Shown piece after piece: positions 2,343-17,571 of a DNA stretch of 21,279 nt. The stretch is from a virus, in IMG/VR virus record IMGVR_UViG_3300020159_000785, positions 1 to 21,279 of that record; one strand, written 5' to 3'. Each line of letters starts with the position of its first letter. Position 1 is the stretch's first letter. The notes beneath the pieces are model-generated. The model did not search any database and was not told the DNA's origin. It worked only from the letters and a program-made list of their open reading frames with translations. The position numbers were made by a program, and so were the translations under genes.

Positions 2343-2681
2343 TTAAGTCTGCGTTATTTCTGGGGTTACTATAACAATACCTTCCAAGATTCGTGTTTTT
2401 GCCGATGTAGATGTATTTGTGATTTCTATGTCATAAAGATATCTACCTGCTGGAATCGCAGAAGTTTGTGTCGATGTTAGTTGTAATCTAACCTTACCAG
2501 TTACAGCGTCATAAACGCTTGCGGTAAATGTATAATAAGTGGAAGAACCATAAGACTTTCTCATTTGAGAAGCGATGGTGTATCCAGATAAATCTAAGGC
2601 TGAGCCTGTGGCTGACGCTACAGTGATAATATTACTGTATGTCGAACCTTGATCTATGTATAAATTTGCTATCGATGCCAC
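2343..2681 (-). CDS. Small virion protein with beta-sandwich-like pattern (112 aa), GTG start
   Basis: First gene after the intrinsic terminator at 2722-2757. The start is GTG at 2681: an in-frame TAA lies just upstream (within 2704-2711), no ATG is available, and GGGAG at 2688-2692 sits six bases before it. The sequence alternates polar and hydrophobic residues, with recognisable parts N-L-Y-I-D-Q-G-S-T-Y, S-Q-M-R-K-S-Y, I-P-A-G-R-Y-L-Y-D-I-E-I and I-L-E-G-I-V-I-V-T-P. This layout is common in marine phage structural clusters and resembles the N-terminal domain of baseplate upper protein (BppU-like) of siphophages. That resemblance is inference only. It probably works with the following 84-aa protein and large fibre. 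There is no signal peptide or transmembrane segment. Confidence 0.82.
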   Translation of the reverse strand: MASIANLYIDQGSTYSNIITVASATGSALDLSGYTIASQMRKSYGSSTYYTFTASVYDAVTGKVRLQLTSTQTSAIPAGRYLYDIEITNTSTSAKTRILEGIVIVTPEITQT

Positions 2682-2721: not shown

Positions 2722-2757
2722 CTGCAAAAAGAAAACCCCACTTCTGTGTGGGGTTTT
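2722..2757 (-). terminator. Intrinsic terminator after the 126-aa gene
   Basis: On the minus strand a perfect 10-bp stem (AAAACCCCAC / GTGGGGTTTT; arms 2748-2757 and 2732-2741) closes a 6-base loop and is followed by C then TTTTT. The GC core of the stem and the T-tract are typical of Rho-independent termination. It ends the 77-aa/oxygenase/126-aa operon. The hairpin also reads on the plus strand with a shorter T run, but there is no plus-strand gene for it to serve. Confidence 0.9.
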
Positions 2758-2810: not shown

Positions 2811-3191
2811 TTATGCTTCTGGTTGAGTTAACGATAGATCCCATGAACCTGTAGTTTCATTCCACTCGTATAATTTACCATCTGTTGGATAATCAACTGG
2901 TGCTTTCCAATTACAAGTTTCTTCATCAAGAAGCCATGAAGTATAACCATTTGGTTTTGGTGGAATAAATGCGTTTAAATCAGCATCGAATTTAAAACCA
3001 ATACCAGCATAATGTTTGCGAAAATTAGCATTATAGCTGGTTTGTTTCCAAACACCACCTAGTAATTTTTCGCAGAATGCTGCTCCGATATGTTCTTTTT
3101 CAACACCAACAGCATCGCAGGTGTCTTCATTTGCTACAACGATTACCTGAGTAACGATGTTGTTTGCGTCTAGTTTTGCAAAATGTGCCAT
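2811..3191 (-). CDS. Conserved phage protein of tail region (126 aa)
   Basis: Matches a protein I recognise as very common in marine T4-like phages next to fibre genes, usually left as hypothetical. Visible landmarks are an N-terminal MAHFAKLDANNIVTQVIVV, then F-C-E-K-L-L-G-G-V-W-K-Q-T-S-Y-N around residues 39-54, Y-A-G-I-G-F-K-F-D around 61-69, and a C-terminal half rich in W, P and Y (SWLLDEETCNW, A-P-V-D-Y-P-T-D-G-K-L-Y-E-W). The regular W/Y spacing suggests a small beta-rich domain. The ATG at 3191 is preceded by AGGAG embedded in the end of the oxygenase gene, with 4 nt between that stop and this start. It ends its operon before a strong terminator. Function unknown; a virion or fibre-associated role is inferred from position. 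Confidence 0.85.
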   Translation of the reverse strand: MAHFAKLDANNIVTQVIVVANEDTCDAVGVEKEHIGAAFCEKLLGGVWKQTSYNANFRKHYAGIGFKFDADLNAFIPPKPNGYTSWLLDEETCNWKAPVDYPTDGKLYEWNETTGSWDLSLTQPEA

Positions 3192-3195
3192 TGTT

Positions 3196-3810
3196 TTAAT
3201 CTCCTAAATTAAGGGCAGTTAATTCTAATTCGTCCCCAAGATTTCCCTTGAGGAATGTGTTAAATGCTAAACTTGTTCTTCTAGTTCTATTCTCACTACT
3301 TTCAACAGTCGCAACCATATGCGTTAAATTTGATGGAAATAACATCAAAGTACAAGTTTTTACTTCAAGCCACCAAGAGTCTGAGTTATATAGGTTAAAC
3401 TCTTTAGATGGTATTTTAATCTGTTTATATTTTTCATTATAGAAAAATATTTTATCAAATTTTATATCTGCTTCAATATATAAAACCCCAGATATAATAG
3501 AGTTTGGATGTTCATGCTTATGATGATACTGTCCTGGCTCCGTATAATTAACCCATGATTGGGTTATATAAGGTTTTACATCATACTTCGGTTGATGAAC
3601 AAGTTGAAAATATTCATTTACACTTGCATCACAAAATTCTTTAATATTTGATAAACATTCTTGTTTAAGAATATAATTATCAATACTCGTTATATTGCCC
3701 ATATTTGTACGAGTTTCCCGAGTAGTTAAAAATTTAACTTCATCTTCAGTAAAACCCTTATCATATGTAAACTGAGCAACAGCAGTTGGGAATAAATGAT
3801 TTACTATCAT
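3196..3810 (-). CDS. 2OG-Fe(II) oxygenase family protein (204 aa)
   Basis: Putative 2-oxoglutarate- and Fe(II)-dependent dioxygenase of the phage/bacterial family typified by TIGR02466/PF13759. The double-stranded beta-helix core is visible: W-V-N-Y-T-E-P-G-Q-Y followed by H-H-K-H-E-H (residues 96-101) and I-S-G-V-L-Y-I, then L-F-P-S-N-L-T-H with H164 as probable distal Fe ligand, and R-T-R-R-T-S-L-A-F-N with R177 or R178 as probable 2OG contact. H99 to H101 probably supply the proximal metal ligands. Length is normal for the family. The ATG overlaps the preceding stop as ATGA (4 nt), with AGGA upstream, so translation is coupled. Such genes are frequent in cyanophages and pelagiphages; the substrate is unknown. 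Placement among fibre genes fits modification of a virion protein, but this is inference. Confidence 0.87.
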   Translation of the reverse strand: MIVNHLFPTAVAQFTYDKGFTEDEVKFLTTRETRTNMGNITSIDNYILKQECLSNIKEFCDASVNEYFQLVHQPKYDVKPYITQSWVNYTEPGQYHHKHEHPNSIISGVLYIEADIKFDKIFFYNEKYKQIKIPSKEFNLYNSDSWWLEVKTCTLMLFPSNLTHMVATVESSENRTRRTSLAFNTFLKGNLGDELELTALNLGD

Positions 3811-4040
3811 CTATTGTCCTGACTAAATCTTTCATACTGTTCGTCAGTCCAAATAGTATCGATTGAATCCTCAAACGCTTTAATCTTTTCCATTGTTTCA
3901 GAAACCTCTTCCCATGTAGGACATGGTCTTGGATCTTCCCAATTTGAAATATGACTATTGCTAATTTCCCACTTTGCACCTGGACGCAATAAATGCATCG
4001 CAGTGTCTACACCATACATCTGATAAATTTTCTTTCTCAT
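3807..4040 (-). CDS. Small conserved phage protein (77 aa), first gene of the oxygenase operon
   Basis: Small acidic protein starting at ATG 4040 behind AGAGGA, a good ribosome binding site six bases away. Landmarks are R-P-G-A-K-W-E-I-S-N near residues 19-28, W-E-D-P-R-P-C-P-T-W-E-E-V in the middle and a helical, Glu-rich C-terminal half (ETMEKIKAFEDSIDTIW). The pattern 'RP.A.W......W.d...P..eEi...i..' resembles small tail-associated proteins of the XkdW type in other phages, but I am not sure of that link. It overlaps the oxygenase gene by 4 nt (ATGA), so the two are translated together and may be functionally tied. Function unknown. Confidence 0.75.
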   Translation of the reverse strand: MRKKIYQMYGVDTAMHLLRPGAKWEISNSHISNWEDPRPCPTWEEVSETMEKIKAFEDSIDTIWTDEQYERFSQDNR

Positions 4041-4075
4041 ACAATCCTCTTATAATAAAGAATAATAAGTTTAAC

Positions 4076-4109
4076 CAACGCTATTATTTAGTAGATAATA
4101 ATAGCGTTG
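4076..4109 (-). terminator. Hairpin after the second glycine-rich gene, possible terminator
   Basis: Perfect 13-bp inverted repeat (arms 4076-4088 and 4097-4109, CAACGCTATTATT and its complement) with an 8-base loop, a few bases after the TGA of the 823-aa gene. It sits between two gene blocks and reads the same in either direction. On the minus strand the following bases are GGTTAAACTTATTATTC, T-rich but without an uninterrupted T run. It may be a weak terminator or an mRNA 3' end stabiliser. Confidence 0.55.
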
Positions 4110-4116
4110 TTTGGCA

Positions 4117-6588
4117 TCAAGTCCATTTAAGAATAACGACTCCAGATCCACCAGCACCAACCAATCCAGTTGAACTACCATTAAATGCGCCACTAGCTCC
4201 ACCGCCAGTATTTGCTGGTGATGCAGCGTCACCAGTACCACCACCACCTAGACCACCAGTACCATTACCGCCATCTCCTGCTCCACCACCACCACCAGCA
4301 TAATATGTAGATGTTCCAGTAATAGAATTTGCAATTCCAACACCACCAGTACCGCCAATATTTGAAGAAGTAGTTCCACCAGCACCGCCAGCACCTCCAC
4401 CACCACCACAACCACCTACTGGTCCTCTACCAGTTCCACCATTATTACCCTGAGATGGACTTGTTGATGGTGTATTTCCAGCACCGCCAGCAGTTCCATA
4501 AGAATTACCGCCACCACCAGAACCACCAGATGCGCCAGCACCACCAGATTCTCTACCAGCACCATAACCACCACCAGTAGATGTAATTCCATTAAAAGAG
4601 GAATTGCTACCACTTGTTGGACTAATGCTATATGTCCCAGTTAAACCACCAGCGCCAACTACGATAGTATATGATGTTCCTGGGGTAACTGACATACCAC
4701 TTCCAGCACGATACCCACCAGCACCACCTCCACCAGTTTTGTTAGAGTTATATGTTCCACCACCTCCACCACCAGCTACAACTACGTATTCAACAGTTGA
4801 TACATTAGTTGGTGCTTGCCATATACCAGATGAATAGAATACTGCTACTTTATTTGATGTTGGGATTAAATAAGAAATACCAACAATACCAGATCCGCCA
4901 GCACCACCAGCAGAAACGCTATTACCAGGAGCTGATAAAGATCCACCACCACCGCCAGATCCACGATTAGTAGTTCCGTCAGTACCAGCACTTGGATGAA
5001 AACCACCAGCACCACCGCCACCAGAACCTCCAGCACCAGCAGTTGAATATTGAGCTGGATATGGAGTTCCAGCAGCACCACCGCCACCAGCGTATATTAC
5101 AGAGGTTCCAGAAATATTTGAGGCTAATCCATCACCACCACCGCCAGCTACAGATGCATTCCAAGTTCTTCCTGGTTGTCCTGCACCGCCACCTCCACCG
5201 CCACCGTATGAATAACCTGAATTACCATCTCCACCACGATTACCCTGACCAGCAGTTCCATTAGCACCAGTGGAAACATCAGTACCACCGCCACCGCCAC
5301 CAGAACCACCGACATCTGGTGCTACACCAGATGTCTGTCCAGATTTACCACCAGCAACAGCAGTTAATCCATTAAAAGTAGAATTAGATCCTGGACCAGC
5401 ATTTTGCGATGGCCAAATCCATTTTTGCCCACCAGCACCAACTACGATTGAGTAAGATGTTCCAGCAGTAACTGATAAAGCAGAACCAGTTAACATACCA
5501 CCAGCACCACCACCACCTACCTGACCACCACCGCCACCAGCAACTATTAGGTAGTTTACGGATGATACACCAGTTGGAGCAGTCCAAGAACCAGAAGCTG
5601 TAAATTCATTGTATACATATTGGAAACCAGTTGGAGCAAGAGAGAATGTTCCAGTACCATTGAATGTATGAATTGTATAAGAACCACTGGTAGTCTTACT
5701 ACCACCAATGGCTGAAATTCCTGAAGCAGTTAAGTATCGAATAATTACGACACCAGAACCACCATAACCACCACGTGGTGCAGCTGAACCATATCCACCA
5801 CCGCCACCACCACTGCCAGTGTTTGCTGTGCCATCACCACCATTCGATACACCAGAAGCTGTGGCACCGCCAGCACCGCCACCACCAGTTCCACCAGCAC
5901 CACCAGTACCACCGTAATATGTTCCACCGCCACCGCCACCAGCACGTGTTACACTTGTTCCTGTTATTGAAGATGCTGCACCAGCACCGCCAGCACCACC
6001 AGCACTAGATGTTCCATTACTACCAACACCGCCAGCACCGCCACCGCCACCAGAACCATAGTTTGGTGAAGTCGCACCTAATGAATTTCCACTATTATTA
6101 CCTTGAGATGGAGAAGTGCTTGGAGTATTGCCATTCATCGCAACACTATTGTAGCCCATAGAACCTGCAGAGCCACCAACAAAGTTTGCGAGAGCTGGAT
6201 CAGATATGTTAGTTGATCCAGAACCCTGTCCACCTCCAGTAGATGTAATTCCATTGAAGGAAGAATTTGAACCAGCACTACCAGCTGGGTAACCAGTTGG
6301 ACCTTGTCCACTACCACCAGCACCAACTACAACAGCATATTCGGTGCCATTTTGCAACGTCATGCCAGTACCAGTTCTATATCCACCAGCACCACCAGCA
6401 CCATTGGTATAAGCACCGCCACCACCACCAGCAATAACTAGGTATTCAACTACAGGCATAGTTGGCCATAGACTACCTTGGTTGTATTGAAGTTGAGATT
6501 TTAATCTCCACATACCACCTGCAACTCCATTAACACCACCAGTTGGTGTTGTTGGATTTTTTGTAATTATTCCGCCAATATAGTCCAC
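4117..6588 (-). CDS. Glycine-rich adhesin-like protein 2 (823 aa), GTG start
   Basis: Probable tip adhesin or fibre-associated protein. The start is GTG at 6588, five bases after GGAG; the adjacent ATG at 6590 is out of frame and meets a stop after seven codons. The N-terminus (residues 1-20, I-G-G-I-I-T-K-N-P) and a W-R-L-x(12)-W-P element at 27-42 match a known marine phage family. Three polyglycine units follow at about 46-286, 343-574 and 598-823. Each opens with VxY-[LV]-[VI]-[VI]-A-GGGGG, contains S-N-S-[ST]-F-N-G-[IL]-T, I-[TS]-G-T-S and AGGGG, and closes with G-G-S-G-[IV]-V then hydrophobic residues. Units 1 and 3 also carry NTPSTSPSQGN. Linker one (about 304-342) is Y-T-I-H-T-F...T-G-T-F-S-L-A-P. 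The only Cys is C727. The 848-aa paralog is immediately upstream, one base away. Receptor binding is inferred from composition and position. Confidence 0.88.
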   Translation of the reverse strand: MDYIGGIITKNPTTPTGGVNGVAGGMWRLKSQLQYNQGSLWPTMPVVEYLVIAGGGGGAYTNGAGGAGGYRTGTGMTLQNGTEYAVVVGAGGSGQGPTGYPAGSAGSNSSFNGITSTGGGQGSGSTNISDPALANFVGGSAGSMGYNSVAMNGNTPSTSPSQGNNSGNSLGATSPNYGSGGGGGAGGVGSNGTSSAGGAGGAGAASSITGTSVTRAGGGGGGTYYGGTGGAGGTGGGGAGGATASGVSNGGDGTANTGSGGGGGGYGSAAPRGGYGGSGVVIIRYLTASGISAIGGSKTTSGSYTIHTFNGTGTFSLAPTGFQYVYNEFTASGSWTAPTGVSSVNYLIVAGGGGGQVGGGGAGGMLTGSALSVTAGTSYSIVVGAGGQKWIWPSQNAGPGSNSTFNGLTAVAGGKSGQTSGVAPDVGGSGGGGGGTDVSTGANGTAGQGNRGGDGNSGYSYGGGGGGGAGQPGRTWNASVAGGGGDGLASNISGTSVIYAGGGGAAGTPYPAQYSTAGAGGSGGGGAGGFHPSAGTDGTTNRGSGGGGGSLSAPGNSVSAGGAGGSGIVGISYLIPTSNKVAVFYSSGIWQAPTNVSTVEYVVVAGGGGGGTYNSNKTGGGGAGGYRAGSGMSVTPGTSYTIVVGAGGLTGTYSISPTSGSNSSFNGITSTGGGYGAGRESGGAGASGGSGGGGNSYGTAGGAGNTPSTSPSQGNNGGTGRGPVGGCGGGGGAGGAGGTTSSNIGGTGGVGIANSITGTSTYYAGGGGGAGDGGNGTGGLGGGGTGDAASPANTGGGASGAFNGSSTGLVGAGGSGVVILKWT
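5429..5471. repeat. 43-nt exact direct repeat, copy A
   Basis: Identical to 7167-7209 base for base and differing at the flanking positions. It encodes the start of a polyglycine unit (S-Y-S-I-V-V-G-A-G-G) in the 823-aa gene. Identity at the DNA level among otherwise diverged units suggests recent exchange between the paralogs. Confidence 0.85.
6095..6133. repeat. 39-nt exact direct repeat, copy A
   Basis: Identical to 8625-8663. It encodes the N-T-P-S-T-S-P-S-Q-G-N motif in unit 1 of the 823-aa protein; the other copy sits in unit 1 of the 848-aa protein. Confidence 0.85.
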
Positions 6589-6589
6589 A

Positions 6590-9136
6590 TTAACTCCACT
6601 TTAAAATTACTATGCCAGATCCACCACTTCTACCAACGACGTTGGAGTCTGCTACACCGCCTCCACCACCGCCAGTACCATATGCACCATCTGTGGCACC
6701 CTGAATTCCAGTTTGTCCTAAACCTACGCTAGAACCCTGTCCACCGCCACCAGCACCACCAAAGGCAACTGTACCAGTATTTTCGATAGAACCACCACCG
6801 CCACCAGCGTAGTAAACTGTAGAACCAGTAATTGTAGATGTTGCACCATCACCTCCGCCACCAGCATTTGATGTAGAAGCAGAACCACCAGCAGAACCAG
6901 CGCCACCGCCACCAGAAGCGTTAAATCCTGGACCAGAAAAGTTTTGTGATCCACCAGCATTACCCTGAGATGGAGTAGTTGAAGGGGTATTACCATTACC
7001 ACCAGTGCCCACGCCACCTCCTGGACCATATCCAGCACCACCGCCAGATCCACCAGCTGCACCATTTCGACTATTTTCTCCACCACCGCCACCACCGCCA
7101 GCAGCAGAAATACCATTGAAGGATGATGCTCCACCATTACTTCCAACAGTATTTACGACAGCACCGCCACCAGCACCAACTACGATTGAGTAAGATGTTC
7201 CAGCAGTAATTGATAGACCAGTACCAGTGCGCATACCACCAGCACCACCGCCACCGCCATTGTTTGAACCACCAGCACCACCACCACCTACAATTAAGTA
7301 TTGTACTTGGGTTGCGCCAGCGGGAGCAGTCCAGTTTGTTGAGGCATAAAATGCTTTAATATTTGTTGTTGGTCTTAGGTATCCTAGAACTACTATTCCA
7401 GATCCACCAGATCCACCTAAGTAGCCACCATTACCACCAGAACCACCGCCACCACCGCCAGTGTTTGCAATACCAGAATCAGCGTTGCCAGTGTTAGGGG
7501 CACCATTACCACCACCACCAATACCACCAAAGCCATAGCTACCTTGGTTGTGATAACCACCGCCACCGCCACCACCGAGAACTCGGCTTAGACCACCAAC
7601 AACTACAGTTTGTCCACGACCACCATTAGTTGGAGTACCTGGAGATCCTGGAAGAGCATCAATACCTTGACCACCAGTGCCACCGCCACCACATCCACCA
7701 ATCATGTTATGTGGAGCAGTTGTTCCTCCACCACGATTACCCTGAGATGGAGTCACGCTTGGAACATTTCCAGAACCTCCTGGAGATCCAGTTCCTGTAT
7801 TTACAGCAAGACCAGATCCACCACCGCATCCACCATCACGTCCAGGTTTTCCTGGATCACTATGAGTACCACCGCCACCACCACCAGCAGAAGAAATTCC
7901 GTTAAATGTACTGGCAGATCCATCTCCACCCTGTGCACCTGTAGTTGCAATGGTTGGGTTCGTTCCACCAGCACCAACAGTAACTGTATAAGGAGATCCA
8001 GCAGTTACTGCTAGACCAGTACCAAAACGCAGACCACCAGCACCGCCACCGCCTGCATGACGAGAGCCACCAGCACCGCCACCAGCCTGAATGGCATAAT
8101 CTACAGAAGTAACCCCAGTTGGAGCAGTCCAAGGACCAGTACTTGTGAATGTTTCAGATGCCCACACATAACCTTCTGGAGCAAGTGAAAATATGCCAGA
8201 AGATTGAAAAGAATGTATTGTGTAATTACCATTTTGAGAAATTATACCACCAGTGGCATTTAAAGTTCCAGTAATATATCTAATGATAACAGTACCAGAT
8301 GCGCCATTACTACCAGCAGCACTAGACCCACTACCACCACCACCACCACCAGTACTTGCTGTTGCATTAATAGCATTGTTAGATCCCAAAGCACCATTAG
8401 CACCACCGCCAGCACCACCAGCACCTACAGTAGATGGAGAATTACCTACACCACCACCACCACCGCCAGCATAAGTTATAGTTGAACCAGTAAGTGTAGA
8501 AGATGTTCCAACACCGCCATTGCCAGCGACTCCAGAACTTGCTGGTCCACCAGTTCCACCAGCACCGCCACCGCCACCACCAGCATTAGTTGTTGCGCTA
8601 CCCTGATCACTTCCCTGACTACCGTTATTACCTTGAGATGGAGAAGTGCTTGGAGTATTGCCAGAACCAGCAGCACCAGCTCCAGCATTTAATCCACCAC
8701 CACCACCAGATCCGCCAGATCTACCGTCTCTATTTGGGTTTGCAAGTGAACTACCACCACCGCCACCACCTCCAGTAGATGTAATTCCATTAAAAGAAGA
8801 ATCACCACCATTTGAACCAAAGTAACCAGTGTTTGATGACACATATGAACCAGCACTTCCACCACCACCTACAATAACAGCATAAGATGTGCCTGGAATA
8901 AGTAACACGTTACTTCCAGTTCTATATCCTCCTCCACCGCCACCACCAGAATATGCAGAACCACCGCCACCACCGCCAGCAACTACTAGGTAATCAACTA
9001 CTGTTAATAGTGGCCATGCGCCCGCAGCGTTATATTGTGCCTGACGTTCAAGCGTCCAACGTCCAGTTGCTCCAGTAACTGCCACTGTTGGAGCAGTTAC
9101 GGACTTTAGATGTCCAGGGAATTGAAAAATTGCCAT
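6590..9136 (-). CDS. Glycine-rich adhesin-like protein 1 (848 aa)
   Basis: Paralog of the protein encoded directly downstream and collinear with it over most of its length. The ATG at 9136 has AAAGG six bases upstream. After an N-terminal segment with W-T-L-E at 27-30 and W-P at 41-42, three polyglycine units occupy about 45-289, 344-589 and 610-848. All three carry the motif N-[TV]-P-S-[TV]-[ST]-P-S-Q-G-N (160-170, 457-467, 716-726) and an S-x-F-N-G-I turn. The linker at 305-343 has N-Y-T-I-H-S-F and F-S-L-A-P. The protein ends G-G-S-G-I-V-I-L-K-W-S, almost the same as its partner. The two Cys (C437, C482) both sit in GGCGGG in unit 2. The composition recalls polyglycine-II adhesins such as gp38 of phage S16, but the fold cannot be shown from sequence. 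Its stop shares one base with an out-of-frame ATG before the next gene. Confidence 0.88.
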   Translation of the reverse strand: MAIFQFPGHLKSVTAPTVAVTGATGRWTLERQAQYNAAGAWPLLTVVDYLVVAGGGGGGSAYSGGGGGGGYRTGSNVLLIPGTSYAVIVGGGGSAGSYVSSNTGYFGSNGGDSSFNGITSTGGGGGGGSSLANPNRDGRSGGSGGGGGLNAGAGAAGSGNTPSTSPSQGNNGSQGSDQGSATTNAGGGGGGAGGTGGPASSGVAGNGGVGTSSTLTGSTITYAGGGGGGVGNSPSTVGAGGAGGGANGALGSNNAINATASTGGGGGGSGSSAAGSNGASGTVIIRYITGTLNATGGIISQNGNYTIHSFQSSGIFSLAPEGYVWASETFTSTGPWTAPTGVTSVDYAIQAGGGAGGSRHAGGGGAGGLRFGTGLAVTAGSPYTVTVGAGGTNPTIATTGAQGGDGSASTFNGISSAGGGGGGTHSDPGKPGRDGGCGGGSGLAVNTGTGSPGGSGNVPSVTPSQGNRGGGTTAPHNMIGGCGGGGTGGQGIDALPGSPGTPTNGGRGQTVVVGGLSRVLGGGGGGGYHNQGSYGFGGIGGGGNGAPNTGNADSGIANTGGGGGGSGGNGGYLGGSGGSGIVVLGYLRPTTNIKAFYASTNWTAPAGATQVQYLIVGGGGAGGSNNGGGGGAGGMRTGTGLSITAGTSYSIVVGAGGGAVVNTVGSNGGASSFNGISAAGGGGGGGENSRNGAAGGSGGGAGYGPGGGVGTGGNGNTPSTTPSQGNAGGSQNFSGPGFNASGGGGAGSAGGSASTSNAGGGGDGATSTITGSTVYYAGGGGGSIENTGTVAFGGAGGGGQGSSVGLGQTGIQGATDGAYGTGGGGGGVADSNVVGRSGGSGIVILKWS
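6594..6597 (-). promoter_or_regulatory. Ribosome binding site that decides a GTG start
   Basis: GGAG on the minus strand, inside the last codons of the 848-aa gene and five bases before GTG at 6588. The context is TAATGTG: the ATG overlapping the upstream TAA is a dead frame, so GTG is the working start. Confidence 0.75.
7167..7209. repeat. 43-nt exact direct repeat, copy B
   Basis: Second copy of 5429-5471, here in unit 3 of the 848-aa gene, whereas copy A lies in unit 2 of the 823-aa gene. Non-equivalent units sharing exact DNA point to unit shuffling rather than simple descent. Confidence 0.85.
8625..8663. repeat. 39-nt exact direct repeat, copy B
   Basis: Second copy of 6095-6133, in the equivalent unit 1 of the paralogous 848-aa gene. 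Confidence 0.85.
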
Positions 9137-9175
9137 TCTTGACCTTTACCAACCAATATTGAAGAAAAACAAAAA

Positions 9176-9550
9176 TTAACTAATCTCGTCCCATGAAGCC
9201 ATGAAAGTTAGATAATTACTAGTACCCGCAGTAATACCAAGAGAGGTATTTTCTAATAGGTTAATTGAAGTTGTTTTATCAATAATAATAAGTGTTGAAT
9301 TTGCAGGTACTGAAATAGTAGATGCAATGGGATAAGATGTGCCACCTAGAGAAGCAGCATTATGGTAAGTAACTGTAACAGTAGCAGCGGCAGATCCGTT
9401 TGTATTTGCCACTACCAAGCTACCTACTTTGAATACTTTACCAGATGAAGCAGCATTACTTGCCACAGAAGTCTCAGATGTAGATGATAGATTACCAGCC
9501 GATGCGTTGGCGTTAATCGTTGCTACGCTAACAATGTTTGGGTTTGCCAT
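9176..9550 (-). CDS. Small conserved virion protein (124 aa)
   Basis: Resembles a small structural protein common in marine phage tail clusters and prophages. Landmarks are MANPNIVSVATI at the N-terminus, S-G-K-V-F-K-V-G-S-L-V-V-A-N around residues 36-49, Y-P-I-A-S-T-I-S-V-P-A-N-S-T-L-I-I-I-D-K in the middle and A-S-W-D-E-I-S at the C-terminus. Regular alternation of hydrophobic and small polar residues suggests an all-beta domain. The start at ATG 9550 is well supported by AAGGAG (9559-9564), eight bases upstream and overlapping the stop of the 314-aa fibre gene. It lies between a fibre and the polyglycine adhesins, so a decoration or adaptor role at the fibre base is plausible but not shown. 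A 39-base gap with a T-rich stretch but no hairpin separates it from the 848-aa gene. Confidence 0.82.
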   Translation of the reverse strand: MANPNIVSVATINANASAGNLSSTSETSVASNAASSGKVFKVGSLVVANTNGSAAATVTVTYHNAASLGGTSYPIASTISVPANSTLIIIDKTTSINLLENTSLGITAGTSNYLTFMASWDEIS

Positions 9551-9562
9551 TTAAATTTCTCC

Positions 9563-10507
9563 TTAGAATCCGAATACTAGTGCCATGGCGATGGCTTTAC
9601 CAGTTGATGCATATGTTGGGGTAGTCCAGCTAGGTGCTGAAGTACCATTTGATTGTAGAAGCTGGCCAGATGAACCAACTGCCGAGAATGCCATTGCAGA
9701 CGCAGTAGAATAAACTACGGCACCAGCATCTGCAGTTAATGTTGCATTAGTACCACCGTAAGGAAGACCTATATCAGTTGCTTGCCATGTGCCAGTACCA
9801 ATAGTACCAACAGAAGTCAAACTACTTAGGGTAGCTACAGCAGTTGTGGCCAAAGTACCAGAAGTAGGAAGCGTTACAGAAGTCGAACCAGTTGCGGTAA
9901 GCGTAACGCTAAATGCACCAGCAGTAATTAATGACGCACCATCAGCAATAGTCAACGTAGCTGAAGTAGCTGGAGCAGTAATTGCTACCTTATTGATAGA
10001 TGTGGCAGTAGCAACACCTAGAGTTGGGGTTGTTAGCGAAGGGCTAGATGCAAGAACTACACTACCAGAACCAGTCGTGGCAGTTACGCTAAGAGTACCA
10101 TCACTACCAGAAGTAGTAACGATACCATTGGAAGTCAAACTTCCAAGTTTCTTATTAGTAAGAGATTCAGCACCAGCAAGGGTTGCCAATGTACCAGTTG
10201 TCGGTAGGGTAAGGGCAGTAGTAGCACTTACTGTAAGGGTAGTACCATATGCACCACTAATGGTTAAAGTACTGGCAGCATTATTCGCTACGCCAGTACC
10301 ACCTTTAGCAGCACCGATAACTGTGCCAGACCAAGTACCAGTGGTTATCGTACCCAAAGTTACGATAGACGTACCACCAGTTAAACTGTTCATCGCACCA
10401 GCGTAAGTCGACTCTATCTTATCAGTATTTAAATTACTAAAGTTATTATCGACTTCCGTGTTTGTTAACGGAGATCCTTTAGTGGCTCTTAAGGTTATTG
10501 TTGACAT
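9563..10507 (-). CDS. Short tail fibre-like protein (314 aa)
   Basis: Fibre protein with a recognisable attachment-type N-terminus, T-L-R-A-T-K-G-S-P-L-T-N-T-E-V-D-N-N-F followed by NLNTDK, seen in many T4-like marine phage fibres. The body is made of Gly/Thr/Ser/Ala-rich repeats such as GTITTGTWSG...IGAAKGGTG and GTIGTGTW...IGLPYGGTN, with LTLPTTGTLAT and VTLPTSGTLAT pairs and a SLTNKKL repeat. The C-terminus includes GQLLQSNGTSAPSW and ends STGKAIAMALVFGF, a common end of short phage fibres. The ATG at 10507 is preceded by AAGGA overlapping the stop of the 78-aa gene. A 28-residue segment (encoded at 9938-10021) matches the large fibre at 26 positions. The protein is complete, and short for a fibre that reaches the host, so it may be a connector or baseplate fibre. 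Confidence 0.85.
   Translation of the reverse strand: MSTITLRATKGSPLTNTEVDNNFSNLNTDKIESTYAGAMNSLTGGTSIVTLGTITTGTWSGTVIGAAKGGTGVANNAASTLTISGAYGTTLTVSATTALTLPTTGTLATLAGAESLTNKKLGSLTSNGIVTTSGSDGTLSVTATTGSGSVVLASSPSLTTPTLGVATATSINKVAITAPATSATLTIADGASLITAGAFSVTLTATGSTSVTLPTSGTLATTAVATLSSLTSVGTIGTGTWQATDIGLPYGGTNATLTADAGAVVYSTASAMAFSAVGSSGQLLQSNGTSAPSWTTPTYASTGKAIAMALVFGF
9938..10021. repeat. Fibre repeat segment, copy in the 314-aa gene
   Basis: Encodes 28 residues starting L-G-V-A-T-A-T-S-I-N-K-V-A-I-T-A and ending T-L-T-I-A-D-G; 26 are identical to the segment encoded at 879-962 in the large tail fibre. DNA is similar but not exact, so it is older than the adhesin repeats. Confidence 0.8.
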
Positions 10508-10513
10508 TTTTCC

Positions 10514-10750
10514 TTATCCTTTTATGCGATCTTTAAGTAATGCAGTCAGCATTTGTTTGATTTCACTCAAATCTTCTTTTATGTTATTAATTTCTTGTGC
10601 CTGATGCACTAATTGCTCTTTATCAGACATTAAAGACTCTTTTCTACGTAGATAATTATCATAATCTGTCCTACTAGTATTTAGGATTGCCATTGTGGCA
10701 GGATCCCTCACCAGATCAGAATTACCCTCAACTTTTAAATAATTTCCCAT
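10514..10750 (-). CDS. Small coiled-coil phage protein (78 aa)
   Basis: Small conserved protein that follows the giant DUF4815-type gene in T4-like marine phages. The N-terminal half carries the pattern Y-L-K-V-E-G-N-S-D-L-V-R-D-P-A-T-M-A-I-L-N-T; I recall a similar 'kVeg...lvRD..t.aiiNt' motif in cyanophage proteins. The C-terminal half (residues about 35-75) is Lys/Glu/Gln-rich with leucine and isoleucine at heptad-like spacing (I-N-N-I-K-E-D-L-S-E-I-K-Q-M-L-T-A-L-L), a probable coiled coil. Its ATG overlaps the upstream TAA by one base (TAATG), so it is translationally coupled to the 2273-aa gene. An assembly or fibre-connector role is possible; no function is established. Confidence 0.82.
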   Translation of the reverse strand: MGNYLKVEGNSDLVRDPATMAILNTSRTDYDNYLRRKESLMSDKEQLVHQAQEINNIKEDLSEIKQMLTALLKDRIKG

Positions 10751-13700
10751 TATGCGCAGGCAATAATTCTCAAGTCTTTAACACGTGGTACAGCCGAACT
10801 ATTAGTGGATTGAAGAACAATCTTAACAGAAATGGCGTCAAACGGAACTAGGTTATCTTCCGAGTAGTCTACATCGTAGAAAGTTCCATCACCATTCTGA
10901 ACTTTTCTAATCGCAACATCTGGAGAAGAAATAGTCCAATTTACTTGTTCTAAATCACGAGTTGCACCAACTGGATTAGTCTTGTAGTAAACCAATACGT
11001 TGGCTTCTGCAGGACAGTTAGTTGACAATCTAATTCTAAAGAAGTTAGATGGGTTTTCTAGTTTGATGGCTTTGGAGATGTATTTGTTAATAGAAGAACT
11101 TCCAGTAGGAGCGATCTCATCAACAAACAGATTTCTCAACTTAACAGTAGTTCCATTTACAGCAGATTCTGCAGTAACAGCAGTTGGACGATCAATTGTA
11201 ACAGTTCCAGTTGTAGAACCATCACCAACAAAACCAGTAACTAGGTAAGTACCATTGTTACCAGCAGTTGTAGAACCAGAGATAGTGATGTACTTACCAA
11301 CAGAGATTGTCTGCATCAAACCAGCCACACTAGAATTAGAAGTAGTAATAGTGCTTGATTTACCAGCATATGCCAGTGTTGCAGTACCATCTAGCTGAAT
11401 ACCAGAAGTAAATATTGGAGCCGAAGTTCCAGTAGTACCAGCAATAGTGACAGTGTAAAGATTACCAAGATAGTGAACCTGATCACCAGCAGACTTAGAA
11501 GTGCTTGCTGCCCATGCAGAACCTACGTTAGCGAAACTAAATGCACCAGTTACGCCAGTAAACACAGTACGATTGTCAATCTCCGCCACGTTGATATTGT
11601 CCTCACGTGGAGTATTAATCTTATTAGAGATTGTGATCAGTGATGTACGATGAGTATCAATAATAGGTGATAGTGAACTATTAGATGAAGATATTGTAGC
11701 CTGTAAGAACGCAGTCTTAGAATTTACAAACTCATCTTCATTTACAGTTGAAGCAATAACTGCTGGTTTGTATAGGTAGTTACTATCATTTGGAATTACA
11801 CCGTAGTACTCACCTAAATCGTATGCAGTTTCTGATCCATCAACTGATTTACCAGAAGTATTCTTGAATTGATATTGGCATGTAGTCTCAGAGAAGTTCT
11901 GAGATTGAATACTTGGCTGAACAATATCATATATTACGTTATGTCCAGCACGAACTGTTTCACCGCCAGCATAACCACTAGTGTTAGCATTTGTTGATGT
12001 AGTTATTACATAAGAATCTAAATCAACATCAGAAATAGTATGAGTAACGGCAGCACCAAGAGTGTCTTTATAAATCTCTGTAATTGGAATTCCATTAACT
12101 GGATCTGCAAATTTATAAGCAACACCAGTACTTATAGTTACAGAAGCGTTGTTTCTCAATACTAATGAAGTGTCGTTTATAACACCATCAACAATACCAA
12201 TACACTTACCATCACTGGCACGGAATAGTGCGCAACCAGTAACTGTAAAGTCATCAATAAACAATGTGCTTACACCAGTAACAGCAGTGCTTGAAGTAGA
12301 GCAAGTAATAGTACCACCAGAAGATGCAACACCAGTATAAACAGTAGTATCTACGTTATCAAACTCAACTTTAGAGTTTACAAACATACCATGCTCGCGA
12401 TGCCATACACGGACTTTGTTAGTTCCTGAAACAGTTTCGAATGGATCGATATCGATAATCTTAACTGGTAGAACATCATTAGTAAATACAACTTCACCAG
12501 TCACTTGTGTATCAAAATTAGCACGATAAACTGTAAACTTCAAATCTTGATCTTGGTTTGCTGTCCAAGTAGAAGCATTTTGTGACTTGAATAGAACACC
12601 AGCATAAGGTTGTTCAGAGATAGTTCTTGCAGAAGCAGGAATCTGATCACCCATCTGACTAATCCAAACTTGGTAGTTATTTGAATCAGATGCTAGAACG
12701 ATACAATACTCTTGACCATCCTGAACATAAACAGGAGATGGGAAAGTGAAAGTAGTTGGAGTGTCGTACTTAGGATATGAAGCACCAGAACCATCAGTCA
12801 TCGTTACGTTTGTTGCAGATAGGTTAACCTGATGTGAGTTCAAAGTTACCTCAGAGAAAGGTAGAATCCTTTTACCTGGATATCCGTTTACAACTTCACG
12901 AATCTGAAGTGTAACTGGTAGGTTAGCATCTTTAGTAGCAAAGAAGATATCAACTTTACTTAAGAACGCACCACCCTTATTCTGAACAAGGAAAGTCTGA
13001 GCCAATGGGTCATACCAACCAGTGTCACGTTCAACACGTTCGATGGTTCTAGTAATAGTGTCATTCTCATTAACAATCTCTTGAATAATATGAGCATTAC
13101 GGATAGAGTTAACTGTCTGCTGACGAGTTTCTACAATACCTTTAGCTTCATATTGAACTTTAGCAGAGGAAGATTGTTGACCATTTACAGTGCTTACATC
13201 AAGCAACTTAAATTCACGAGTACCAGTGCGGAATCTTAATGCATCGCTATCTGGGATAAAGAAGATAAAGTTTAAATCACCAATAGAGTTAGTTACAAGA
13301 GCACCACCCTGAGATCTATTTGTTTCTTTAACAGTTAAAGTTGCAGTTGCGCCAGATATTGAGCCAGAGATAGATTCATTTGTAGTGAAAATACCTTTAA
13401 TATTCATAACATGAAGTTTACGAATATTATTTTCTTCATCATATGACTTACCAACAACTACAGCAGTGGCAGCAGAAGATGCACCAGTAATTACGTCACC
13501 TACGTTTAGGCACATATTACCACCATTATCTGCTTTGAACACACCAGAAGTTTCTACAATGACACGTGCATTTTCTGAGGCCAATGAACCAGAGTTCTTT
13601 GCAGTTTCAAAATCAGTTGCAGTGGCAGATGGTAGTGTATAAGTAAACACTGAAGATGGAGTGCAATATGAACCAACTCCGATATTATCAAAGTATGGAT

Positions 13701-16700
13701 AGAATGTTGTATTTGGTTTTAATTTTTTAACCTGAACTAGAATATTACGACTGCGGATATAAGGAATCAGCGCAGTAGAAACTACTTTGTCATCAACGAT
13801 CTGTCGTTCGAATTGAACAGCTAGAGTTGACTTAACACCAGTTCTAGATCTAGTACCAGTTTGTGCAGATTGAGAAACAAAAACCTGACGAGCAGGAGCA
13901 CCTCGCTCACCACCGAAACGTCTAACGAATTCGTCTACGTTAATATAAGTAGCACCTTCTTCAAGAGCACGTTGGTTCGCCCAGTTATCACCAGAAGTAT
14001 ACTGAATCAAAGATCCACCAACTGGAACTGGTTGACCAATCCAGTTTACTTGCCATGAGTTCCAAATAGTACCGAGGATACCAGCCTGTGTTGCAAGAGC
14101 AGCAATAGTATTAAAACTACCTTCTACGTTACGAACGATGTCTGGTGCACGTTTAGTTTCAAACCAATCATCTGAAGATGGGTTTAAACGAACATCACCA
14201 AGGAATGTAAAGATTGCAAATGGGTTAATATTTTCTAAACGAGAAGCGTATTGTTGAGTTACTAGAGGAACATGTGGTGTGCTAGAGTTTAATGGTAGGG
14301 TAATTACATCACCATAAACTTTATAACCAGCAGTAGTTCGATCACCATCGTTTGATAAACTTTCAATTAAGTTTACGTTTTCCATTACATAGAATGGACG
14401 CAACTCACCACGCTCACTATCGATAGAGCAGAGATAGTCTGGGGATAATACGTTACCTACATTATGTCCAGTGAAAGCATCAACAATAAAACCATTCTTG
14501 AAACGATCTAAACCATTTGCGTCAACGATTGATAGACTTTTTGTTTCTTGCTCTAATAATGAAAGGGAAGTGTAGTATTCTAGATTGTCAATACGCTTTT
14601 CTAGTTTACCAATATCACGCATTGTATAACGACGATTATCAACCTGATCGATTAAAATATTTGCGTTTGATGTACCGAAAGTATATGGCTCAAGTGTTAG
14701 TTTATAAAGAACCATACCCAATGCTGGGTCTATTGGTTCACCAGGAACTAATGCAGAAACACCAGCAATGTTGAAGAATGTACCGCTTGAATCAATAGCG
14801 ATTTTATCTTTACGGGATAGGTAATAAGAATAATCTACAGTAACATCTTGACCACGTTTTGGATGCATACTAAACGATGATCCAGAACCAGCAAAGGTAG
14901 TTCCAGCATCATTAATGCGTGGACGGAAATCTAATACATCACGTAGAGATACGCTATTATATGAAGGGATATCTACCAACTTAACAGTTGCTGGATATGA
15001 GTTAATTGTAAAGTAGTCACCAGATGAATGTGTAAAGAACTCAAATGTAACTGAGATTGGAGCAGAAGGTGGTGAATATGAATGTTTTAAAATCAATCGA
15101 CCAAGATCATAGTGAGTATCACGCTGACCATTATCAAAGTCGTAACGATCATAGATACTAATATCATAGTTACCAGTAGCTGATGCGAATGTACCAGTAT
15201 CCATCATAATAGATTTGATACGCAGAACGTCTGCCTTACCTAATGATAATATAGCTTTAGCTGCTGCAGTCTGAGTAGTATAAGTCTGAGTTACAGTTTG
15301 TAATGTCTTAGTCTTCTCTCCACCATCAGAACCAACTTTTTTAATCGTTGCCATAACAACAAAGTTGGAAGAAGCGTAAGTATCTGGGAGAGTAAATGTA
15401 ATAGAAGAAGATCCACCAGCACTAATAGATGTTGGTTGAACAACTGTACCACCAGAACCTGCATCATACCAAACTACAATATAGTTATCGTTTTCACTAG
15501 ATTCAGCAAATACACCAGCAGTAGTGTTAATAGTAAGCATACAAGAACCACCAGAACCAGAACCAGAAGTTCCAGAAAGATATTGCATACCATAGTAAAT
15601 AATTTGTTTAGCTGAGTTTGCATCACGAACTGAACGAATAGCATAGTTTGGTAGTGGGTAGATTAACTTATTGCTCTGTGGTTCTTGAACTTTAGATTTA
15701 ATAAGTTTGATAATACCACCATCAACTGTTACTGCAGTGTCAACAGTAATCTGTTGATTATTTGTAATTGCAGTAACTCTACGACGCACATCACCAGTAG
15801 TGGTATTGAGGAAAATAAAGTCACCAACCTTAAGTGCTGGGCTAGTAGTTGTGCCACCAGAGAACGCAGTTCCAATACCATAGATGGTAGTAGATGATCC
15901 ACGAGTTCCTGGATAACTGGTATAAGTTGTTGCTGAGCCAGCCAATTGAGTTGCAATTTCTTTTACATCAGCAGTAAAGTTTAAGTTAGTATCGCTACGG
16001 CTATAATAGAAAGACTTGGCGTCTCTATCAAAATCAAAGCCAGTATTTAATCTTACATCAAATAGGTATAGTTTGTAAACTGCACCCTGTGTACCAATTG
16101 TACCAGAATCCCATTCAATTCCACGAATACGTGCAGTACCAACAACAGTTGCACTTGCTGGAGCCACACCAACAGAAGATGTGAATCTATTGTAAATTGT
16201 AATAGATGGCATACCAGTTGTTGAGTCGAAAGGTGGTAGCGAATTGATATTTGTTACATAAACAAAATTACCAACTGGAGTAGTTAGATACGTATCAGTC
16301 GTTTGATTGAAGTCACGTGCTTTATTAACAGTGACGTATTCGGTTGCAATTTTCTCTATCTCAAAACCTTGGATATATGCTTTTCCTGGCTCCATACCAA
16401 CAGCCAACTTGGCTTCACTTCCACCACTTTCTGGTGAATAAATGCCACGATTGTATATTGGGTTCTCGTTATATTCCCAATTAATACCAGTTGAAGAAGC
16501 ACCATCATATGATGTTCCACTAGTATGAGTTGGTGGAATATTAACAGAAGTTGCAGAATTGCTGGCGACGTAAGTGTTGCCACCATTGGTAACCACATCA
16601 CCAATTAAATATGCTTTATTTTGAACCCATGCACCACGATTATTGTTGCGATGTTCACGAACATCAATAGCGAAAGGGCGAATTGTATAGTTACCAGACT

Positions 16701-17571
16701 CATCATATGTACGACGAGCCAATGTCTTTTCAATCTCAGCATATGCTGTTTGAGTTACTTCACGTTTGACCTGACCTTCAAAAGTAGATAGAAGTTCAAT
16801 AAAGTCAACATCATTAACAGAATCTGGAGCAACTTTAGAAAGAATTAAATCAATAAAGTAGCGATGTGCACCTGGAGCAGCAAAGTTAAAGCTGTTTTGT
16901 GCGTTGTCTAAAAGACTTTCGTATCCAGTAGTTTCTGGAGTAATTTTACTTTCAATAACAGTAAGACCAACACGATAAGAAGGCTCGTTACTATATTTGT
17001 CAAGAACAATCGTTTGTTCTTCACAAAGAACAAAATAACCATTTACATAATATACACCACGTTGAACAGTTGCAGCTGATCCAACACCAGTTGCAGATGT
17101 AGTTTGTGCGGTAACAGTATAAGCATCATCAGAAGTAGTTAAAATTTCACCATCAGCAAAAACTTTGGTTGTGGTATCAGTACCAGAAGATGTATAACGA
17201 ACATATAAAGTTGTTGGGTCTGCACCATCAGCATTCTCGATCGCGAGTACCTGAGCAGTCACTCCAGACGCACCGATAAGAGTTGCACCTGCAAGATCAG
17301 CAATAAAAGTTTCAGTTACGTCACCAGCTTGGTTAAATGCTTCCAACTTAACATAGTTAAATTTAGTGTCAAGAGAAATCTGACCTGGGATAACCATTGC
17401 TCCCTGTTTGAACACATGGTCGCCATGACGCTTAATTTGATTTTGGAGGATGGTCTGTAGCTGAGTTAATTCTCTGGCTTGCACAGCGTAACTTGGACGG
17501 AATAAAATTCGATAGAATTTATTATTCTCATCAAAGTCGTCATTATACGGTTCGGTATTGAAGTCTAACAT
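10750..17571 (-). CDS. Giant baseplate/virion structural protein, DUF4815 type (2273 aa)
   Basis: Very large structural protein next to gp8, in the place where T4 keeps its remaining baseplate wedge and pin genes. The N-terminus is diagnostic for the DUF4815 family: Y-N-D-D-F-D-E-N-N-K-F-Y-R at 9-21, Y-A-V-Q-A-R-E-L-T-Q-L-Q at 28-39, then H-G-D-H-V-F-K-Q-G-A-M-V-I-P-G up to 63. A W-N-K-A-Y-x-x-G-D module lies at about 313-367 and a second at about 2018-2070 (W-A-A-S-T...G-N-L-Y...G-T-T-G-T-S-A-P). The C-terminus (F-D-A-I-S-V-K-I-V-L-Q-S-T-N...P-R-V-K-D-L-R-I-I-A) is the usual family end. The ATG is at 17571, with AGGA/AGAG about 8-12 bases upstream. The reading frame is intact. The exact equivalence to T4 gp9/gp10/gp11 is unresolved, so no symbol is given. 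Confidence 0.9.
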   Translation of the reverse strand: MLDFNTEPYNDDFDENNKFYRILFRPSYAVQARELTQLQTILQNQIKRHGDHVFKQGAMVIPGQISLDTKFNYVKLEAFNQAGDVTETFIADLAGATLIGASGVTAQVLAIENADGADPTTLYVRYTSSGTDTTTKVFADGEILTTSDDAYTVTAQTTSATGVGSAATVQRGVYYVNGYFVLCEEQTIVLDKYSNEPSYRVGLTVIESKITPETTGYESLLDNAQNSFNFAAPGAHRYFIDLILSKVAPDSVNDVDFIELLSTFEGQVKREVTQTAYAEIEKTLARRTYDESGNYTIRPFAIDVREHRNNNRGAWVQNKAYLIGDVVTNGGNTYVASNSATSVNIPPTHTSGTSYDGASSTGINWEYNENPIYNRGIYSPESGGSEAKLAVGMEPGKAYIQGFEIEKIATEYVTVNKARDFNQTTDTYLTTPVGNFVYVTNINSLPPFDSTTGMPSITIYNRFTSSVGVAPASATVVGTARIRGIEWDSGTIGTQGAVYKLYLFDVRLNTGFDFDRDAKSFYYSRSDTNLNFTADVKEIATQLAGSATTYTSYPGTRGSSTTIYGIGTAFSGGTTTSPALKVGDFIFLNTTTGDVRRRVTAITNNQQITVDTAVTVDGGIIKLIKSKVQEPQSNKLIYPLPNYAIRSVRDANSAKQIIYYGMQYLSGTSGSGSGGSCMLTINTTAGVFAESSENDNYIVVWYDAGSGGTVVQPTSISAGGSSSITFTLPDTYASSNFVVMATIKKVGSDGGEKTKTLQTVTQTYTTQTAAAKAILSLGKADVLRIKSIMMDTGTFASATGNYDISIYDRYDFDNGQRDTHYDLGRLILKHSYSPPSAPISVTFEFFTHSSGDYFTINSYPATVKLVDIPSYNSVSLRDVLDFRPRINDAGTTFAGSGSSFSMHPKRGQDVTVDYSYYLSRKDKIAIDSSGTFFNIAGVSALVPGEPIDPALGMVLYKLTLEPYTFGTSNANILIDQVDNRRYTMRDIGKLEKRIDNLEYYTSLSLLEQETKSLSIVDANGLDRFKNGFIVDAFTGHNVGNVLSPDYLCSIDSERGELRPFYVMENVNLIESLSNDGDRTTAGYKVYGDVITLPLNSSTPHVPLVTQQYASRLENINPFAIFTFLGDVRLNPSSDDWFETKRAPDIVRNVEGSFNTIAALATQAGILGTIWNSWQVNWIGQPVPVGGSLIQYTSGDNWANQRALEEGATYINVDEFVRRFGGERGAPARQVFVSQSAQTGTRSRTGVKSTLAVQFERQIVDDKVVSTALIPYIRSRNILVQVKKLKPNTTFYPYFDNIGVGSYCTPSSVFTYTLPSATATDFETAKNSGSLASENARVIVETSGVFKADNGGNMCLNVGDVITGASSAATAVVVGKSYDEENNIRKLHVMNIKGIFTTNESISGSISGATATLTVKETNRSQGGALVTNSIGDLNFIFFIPDSDALRFRTGTREFKLLDVSTVNGQQSSSAKVQYEAKGIVETRQQTVNSIRNAHIIQEIVNENDTITRTIERVERDTGWYDPLAQTFLVQNKGGAFLSKVDIFFATKDANLPVTLQIREVVNGYPGKRILPFSEVTLNSHQVNLSATNVTMTDGSGASYPKYDTPTTFTFPSPVYVQDGQEYCIVLASDSNNYQVWISQMGDQIPASARTISEQPYAGVLFKSQNASTWTANQDQDLKFTVYRANFDTQVTGEVVFTNDVLPVKIIDIDPFETVSGTNKVRVWHREHGMFVNSKVEFDNVDTTVYTGVASSGGTITCSTSSTAVTGVSTLFIDDFTVTGCALFRASDGKCIGIVDGVINDTSLVLRNNASVTISTGVAYKFADPVNGIPITEIYKDTLGAAVTHTISDVDLDSYVITTSTNANTSGYAGGETVRAGHNVIYDIVQPSIQSQNFSETTCQYQFKNTSGKSVDGSETAYDLGEYYGVIPNDSNYLYKPAVIASTVNEDEFVNSKTAFLQATISSSNSSLSPIIDTHRTSLITISNKINTPREDNINVAEIDNRTVFTGVTGAFSFANVGSAWAASTSKSAGDQVHYLGNLYTVTIAGTTGTSAPIFTSGIQLDGTATLAYAGKSSTITTSNSSVAGLMQTISVGKYITISGSTTAGNNGTYLVTGFVGDGSTTGTVTIDRPTAVTAESAVNGTTVKLRNLFVDEIAPTGSSSINKYISKAIKLENPSNFFRIRLSTNCPAEANVLVYYKTNPVGATRDLEQVNWTISSPDVAIRKVQNGDGTFYDVDYSEDNLVPFDAISVKIVLQSTNSSAVPRVKDLRIIACA

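Follow-up and report, generated by a model that had tools for sequence, protein, structure and literature searches.

Behind the baseplate connector gene of the window, a 21,279-base stretch of viral DNA, lie two adjacent long ORFs, A and B, whose products consist of 33 to 34% glycine, and the question that they raise is what such chains are for. We conclude that both very probably serve as exchangeable adhesins for host recognition, given their family and fold, an evolution in which stems are conserved and tips vary, and the finding that lectin-type proteins have taken their place in a sister phage while retaining the docking motif.

The gene order of the window supplies the setting. The relatives of the window VrlC protein are found in Synechococcus phage BUCT-ZZ01 (43%), Pelagibacter phage HTVC008M (38%) and other Kyanoviridae. 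T4-like phages of SAR11 and cyanobacteria carry a hypervariable host recognition cluster downstream of VrlC, which lies between VrlC and gp14 and is non-syntenic among close relatives (PMC7029224). The A/B region stands directly behind VrlC and is likewise non-syntenic with respect to its close relatives, consistent with the original prediction, which had assigned A and B to a tail-fibre or host-recognition context. VrlC is followed by genes for a 78-aa protein, a 314-aa fibre-like protein, a 124-aa protein, A, B, a 77-aa protein, a 2OG-Fe(II) oxygenase and a 126-aa protein, and then by a terminator-like hairpin and more fibre genes. The features are as follows.

10750..17571, minus strand: VrlC, a gp10-like baseplate wedge-fibre connector protein; largest gene of the window and start of the host recognition cluster.
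9563..10507, minus strand: 314-aa fibre-like protein; the first ~60 aa nearly identical to those of the sister phage L089, then divergent.
9176..9550, minus strand: 124-aa protein, directly preceding the adhesin slot.
6590..9136, minus strand: ORF A, 848 aa; class I N terminus (MAIFQFPG...ATGRWTLERQAQYNAAGAWP) and three Gly_rich_2 units.
4117..6588, minus strand: ORF B, 823 aa, GTG start; class II N terminus (MDYIGGIITKNP...GMWRLKSQLQYNQGSLWP) and three Gly_rich_2 units.
3807..4040, minus strand: 77-aa partner gene (GVDTAMHLLRPGAKWEISN...WEDPRPCPTWEEV...); candidate assembly chaperone, by linkage.
3196..3810, minus strand: 2OG-Fe(II) oxygenase (PF13759), a conserved adhesin neighbor.
2811..3191, minus strand: 126-aa protein (phrog_7759), a conserved adhesin neighbor.
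2732..2757, minus strand: terminator-like hairpin with a T run, 3' of the 126-aa gene; 10-pair stem, consensus match.

Judging from its sequence, the hairpin probably closes the transcription unit of the adhesins. Promoter-like matches in the window were at chance level, and the T4-type late-promoter matches (one TATAAATA on the coding strand) were set aside because they were fewer than expected by chance. Past the terminator and ahead of another fibre gene sits the gene for a 112-aa protein (2343-2681, minus strand) that matches phrog_3304, "L-shaped tail fiber protein assembly" (3e-21). The fibre-like protein at 3-2072 (minus strand) has repeated LTNKTLTSPTL-type motifs and no Pfam match, and it is truncated by the window end.

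Both the position of the tandem pair and its reading as three polyglycine units per paralog were as first described. Gly_rich_2 (PF21722) matches three stretches apiece in A and B, with 203 and 195 bits, respectively, against a curated cut-off of 24.3 (whole-protein E values of 8e-60 and 2e-57). Since all six units score as Gly_rich_2, the six-unit pattern is far beyond chance. The units occupy aa 45-288, 343-587 and 609-848 of A and aa 45-286, 342-574 and 597-823 of B, so that the unit length, given originally as ~225 to 250 aa, is 227 to 245 aa. In both proteins a 44-aa N-terminal segment precedes the units, a long linker (54 to 55 aa) joins units 1 and 2, and a short one (21 to 22 aa) joins units 2 and 3. 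The common scaffold proposed for the units stands in full for its V-x-Y and F-N-G elements, which occur in all six, and in five of six units each for P-S-x-x-P-S-Q-G-N, which reads TAGQGN in B2, and for the closing G-S-G-[IV]-V strand, which reads GASGTV in A1. A and B are 48% identical over their length, and units are 45 to 56% identical to each other (28 to 48% with glycine pairs left out). A unit tree paired A2 with A3 (support of 0.50) and grouped A1 with B1 (0.17), values too weak to order the unit duplications. ORF B opens with a GTG start directly after the stop codon of A (reading MDYIGG...), and this start is backed by a relative, L125, which opens with MDYIGGFITKNPTTPTGG...

The gene that follows B bears on how such chains might be assembled. 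A scan of viral contigs with the 77-aa protein alone yielded 588 confirmed places, and the best 80 of these were fetched. Among the 71 distinct copies that they contained, a glycine-rich ORF lay directly upstream in 63, a contig edge in 7 and an intervening gene in 1, so that, of 64 informative loci, 63 have the 77-aa gene next to a glycine-rich ORF. Where loci were retrieved with B, the gene comes after 38 multi-unit ORFs and after none of 20 single-unit ORFs; of the other multi-unit ORFs, 8 are the leading member of a tandem pair and 8 are neither followed by the gene nor in that position. These loci are related, and the linkage counts are hence not independent events. The 77-aa gene is usually 4 bases from the adhesin gene or overlaps it, and the members of its family are 53 to 74% identical to the window copy and better conserved than the adhesins. 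This gene next to multi-unit glycine-rich adhesins is a new element.

The fibre of cyanophage Pam3 is found in the virion, and its chaperone is encoded by the neighboring gene (PMC9608196). By analogy with this chaperone, gp25, we lean toward the view that the 77-aa protein is a chaperone for adhesin assembly. Its AlphaFold2 model (helix, hairpin, helix, helix; pLDDT of 91) has no match among solved folds in the PDB, and neither profile nor fold comparison revealed similarity to Tfa/gp25-type chaperones. The sole profile match, to an engineered glutamate-rich helical repeat (E value of 8e-6), was taken as compositional. This dissimilarity to Tfa-type chaperones, together with a homologue in Prochlorococcus phage P-RSM4 that is not directly adjacent to a glycine-rich ORF, lends real plausibility to a protein that acts instead as a structural cap or a regulator, or that is a passenger of the adhesin-oxygenase cassette. 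We nonetheless incline against these roles, since the gene accompanies multi-unit ORFs only (38 versus 0 of 20), usually lies 4 bases from the adhesin gene or overlaps it, and is better conserved than the adhesins.

The 2OG-Fe(II) oxygenase is a frequent but non-exclusive adhesin neighbor. Scanning for the oxygenase located a glycine-rich ORF at most 1.2 kb upstream in 59 of 75 non-edge copies, with the 77-aa gene present in 20 of those 59, whereas the remaining 16 copies had no glycine-rich ORF, and exclusivity was therefore rejected. The recurrence beside glycine-rich adhesins was seen at 3196-3810 (minus strand) of the window and in relatives L174 to L248. That the linked oxygenase modifies the adhesin is speculation. 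In P-RSM4 (L249; 3467-7533), homologues of the 77-aa and 126-aa genes are neighbors in a cluster that includes several oxygenases, one of them annotated as leprecan-like, a name used for prolyl hydroxylases; the single-unit glycine-rich ORF is ~3 kb away.

Comparison with the sister phage L089 revealed a swapped cassette. Its DNA is 94% identical to the window over 7.3 kb, up to the fibre genes, and its VrlC and 78-aa proteins are 96.7% and 97.4% identical to those of the window. The 314-aa protein is identical at 59 of its first 60 residues, after which similarity drops, and the 124-aa protein is 48% identical; the sequences thus place the apparent recombination boundary within the 314-aa protein gene, past the first ~60 aa. 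A and B are absent from L089, and apparent similarities to B (25% identity) proved to be low-complexity noise. In their place are proteins of 1,078 and at least 1,475 aa with LamG/concanavalin-type lectin domains. A docking-motif profile built from 66 glycine-rich N termini matched both of these replacement proteins (2e-8 and 3e-6) and one in a second sister phage, L092 (3e-9), and these were the sole three non-glycine-rich matches of the profile. A glycine-rich ORF comes directly after the 124-aa gene in 47 of 50 informative loci, and in both L089 and L092 this gene stands ahead of the lectin proteins. The lectin-type replacement in L092 (12095-15598) also has a weak Pfam match (3e-5) to a neurotoxin receptor-binding N-domain, which has a jelly-roll fold; we took this match as lectin-fold similarity rather than as a sign of a toxin.

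The same N-terminal motif occurs on a glycine-rich and a lectin protein alike (7e-22) in phage DSL-LC04 (L250, OR003939; 61.5 kb), whose 77-aa copy is 71% identical. Its cluster (2959-10384) comprises a putative lectin in the 124-aa slot, a two-unit glycine-rich ORF, the 77-aa gene, an oxygenase, the 126-aa gene and the motif-bearing lectin protein. The presence of the cassette in DSL-LC04 suggests transfer between unlike phages, and we read the 44-aa N-terminal segment as a putative docking module for exchangeable adhesive heads.

Across 284 family units, entropy was near 0 to 0.5 bits in the glycine runs and rose to about 2.5 to 3.8 bits in nine inter-run segments of variable length. In 46 related pairs, tips differed at 57.8% of amino acids and stems at 10.4% (67.0% versus 18.7% without glycine), and indels stood at 14.2% in tips against 0.8% in stems. 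Since the tip and stem classes for this test had been drawn from the same family alignment, it was rerun with classes taken from the six window units on 14 pairs that excluded the window, and tips again changed more than stems (30.4% versus 3.9%). The expectation that the variable segments change faster than the scaffold was thus borne out, and the pattern of conserved stems and hypervariable tips is of the Pam3 type. Fourfold synonymous change was similar in the two classes, at 49.0% in tips and 53.6% in stems; because synonymous sites are near saturation, the rate test measures a difference in constraint and does not separate positive selection from relaxed constraint. The reading frame is under purifying selection, as the stems combine 10% amino acid change with ~54% fourfold change.

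Two other accounts of the tips bear weighing. The units could be structural spacers or brush domains that make non-specific contact with the envelope while their tips drift unconstrained. The high indel rate of the tips fits such loose constraint, and Bxb1 "brush" domains of the same fold have been discussed as touching lipid-rich cell walls (as cited in PMC13243795). We consider this account unlikely, however, since the cassette swap with lectin-domain proteins on a common docking motif and the position in a host recognition cluster both favor specific binding. Tip variability could also have causes other than receptor binding, such as escape from anti-phage factors.

A third account concerns the number of units and depends on how widespread the layout is. 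Our sample comprised 154 distinct complete glycine-rich ORFs from loci fetched with B or the 77-aa gene, and its counts lean toward these queries: two units were found in 117 ORFs, one in 28, three in 7 and four in 2. It has been shown that TNF-like domains trimerise in Pam3 (PMC9608196), and A and B each have three units, which would allow the three TNF-like units of one chain to form an intramolecular trimer in place of the gp24 homotrimer. With two units as by far the commonest count, we regard such a trimer as improbable.

The multi-unit, two-chain layout had been suggested to be special to this phage, but 126 of the 154 relatives carry from two to four units, and 30 loci contain a tandem pair, with three ORFs in a row in one locus. 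Given these unit counts and tandem pairs, the three-unit chain is a less common version of a layout that is itself widespread. Tandem pairs keep a set order: among 23 distinct pairs, 18 open with a MAIHGYPG-type N terminus, followed in at least 16 of the 18 by a YPGRIITK...W-x-L type, and A followed by B fits this class I to class II order by eye. Near-identical loci in L015 (3994-7304, a four-unit ORF) and L016 (9273-12551, two overlapping two-unit ORFs) differ by a frameshift, an assembly error or a real splitting. A tblastn search of phage records with A and B as queries yielded no match, almost certainly owing to masking of the glycine-rich stretches by the low-complexity filter, and isolates were reached via VrlC and the 77-aa protein; the viral-contig scan with ORF A returned no confirmed relative. 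We found no description of the multi-unit layout in the open-access literature searched, so the layout is new to that literature, yet common in uncultured phages.

The fold was assessed with an AlphaFold2 model of B built from an alignment of 44 relatives, all of which match Gly_rich_2. The model is ordered (mean pLDDT of 79.9; units 2 and 3 mostly 80 to 95, N terminus below 60), and in every unit strands flank long extended glycine stretches. Its pTM is 0.64, and it does not fix the inter-unit arrangement; a short N-terminal helix (aa 29 to 37) lies in a low-confidence region. The best fold match was the Bxb1 tail tip (9d93, E value of 6e-5), followed by the Pam3 fibre (7ypx, 8e-5; 7yfw, 5e-4) and the glycine-rich domain of ALK (7lir, probability of 0.99; 116 columns, 3.7 Å). 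Structure prediction thus agrees with the packed polyglycine fold that had been envisaged, and the polyglycine-II packing of the A and B units is taken from these homologues by analogy. S16 gp38, proposed as the closest analogue, did not hold that place: by sequence, the unit profile reached Pam3 gp24 as its sole solved relative in the PDB (E value of 0.009) and did not match gp38 (6F45) at E values up to 10, and gp38 was absent among the 50 fold matches listed of 61. Although glycine-rich sequence biases searches and yields long antisense ORFs, of which many cross A and B and are by-products of composition, there is virtually no chance that A and B are low-complexity or antisense artefacts, a reading already refuted by family scores far over the curated cut-off, purifying selection at the codon level and the ordered model.

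Taken together, these results lead us to propose that a T4-like (Kyanoviridae-type) aquatic phage uses A and B as receptor-binding adhesins and encodes them in an exchangeable host recognition cluster behind VrlC. Each chain would consist of a short N-terminal docking segment and three TNF-like beta-sandwich units, each projecting about 13 extended glycine runs as a bundle. The far-end turns of these runs, hypervariable in sequence and length, would make up the binding surface. With several units per chain and two chains of different docking type (class I, then class II), one tail may present many different tips, and the 77-aa protein may help to fold or hold the multi-unit glycine-rich chains, as the Pam3 chaperone does for its fibre. 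We consider this explanation as a whole, with receptor binding in an exchangeable cluster, multi-tip display and a 77-aa helper, to be likely; receptor binding, presence in the virion, the role of the 77-aa protein and the reason for unit repetition are its inferred parts. Only tentatively do we extend it to a modular system in which class I and II chains fill two docking slots with several non-identical heads, the 77-aa proteins are a dedicated, unrecognised chaperone family, and the oxygenase perhaps modifies the adhesins.

Fibres evolve too fast to annotate, which leaves host recognition by uncultured aquatic phages mostly obscure, and the distribution of polyglycine domains among phages has been called an open problem (PMC13243795). 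The 77-aa gene and the docking motif, both conserved, can serve as two simple search flags for adhesins of this type, and sister phages in which the docking motif is retained while glycine-rich arrays are exchanged for lectin arrays provide a natural host-range experiment. Should the 77-aa partner be a chaperone, these aggregation-prone adhesins would become producible and testable.

Among known proteins, the family of A and B includes phage proteins labelled "glycine-rich domain-containing" that carry no functional assignment, such as A0A222YVH7 of Synechococcus phage Bellamy and UniProt entry A0A6J5SA97 (808 aa), which is 43% identical to B across its length. The gp38 adhesin of Salmonella phage S16 and of T-even phages carries a polyglycine-II bundle whose variable loops sit at the tip of the fibre; it is a single unit and is attached to gp37, not through a docking motif like that of A and B. 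The glycine-rich domain of the ALK/LTK receptors shares with A and B a TNF-like fold with inserted glycine helices, but it belongs to an animal receptor, and its sequence similarity is not significant. The glycine-rich domains of the tail tip of mycobacteriophage Bxb1, the top fold match, have been noted as a polyproline-II/polyglycine bundle (PMC13243192), although the setting, a siphophage tail tip on another host, differs. In Pam3, the glycine-rich loops stack distally and the variable tips are proposed as receptor binders (PMC9608196). Pam3 gp24 has one unit per chain and a long helical trimer-forming shaft, in contrast to the three units of A and B and the short N-terminal helix of the B model, and gp25 and the 77-aa partner are unrelated by sequence or fold. 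Nevertheless, gp24 and the A and B units both have TNF-like strands and glycine-rich loops stacked as a bundle, as in 7ypx and 7yfw, with variable distal ends and similar numbers of glycine motifs (about 12 in gp24 and about 13 per unit by our own count), and in Pam3 and the window alike a small gene lies beside the fibre gene.
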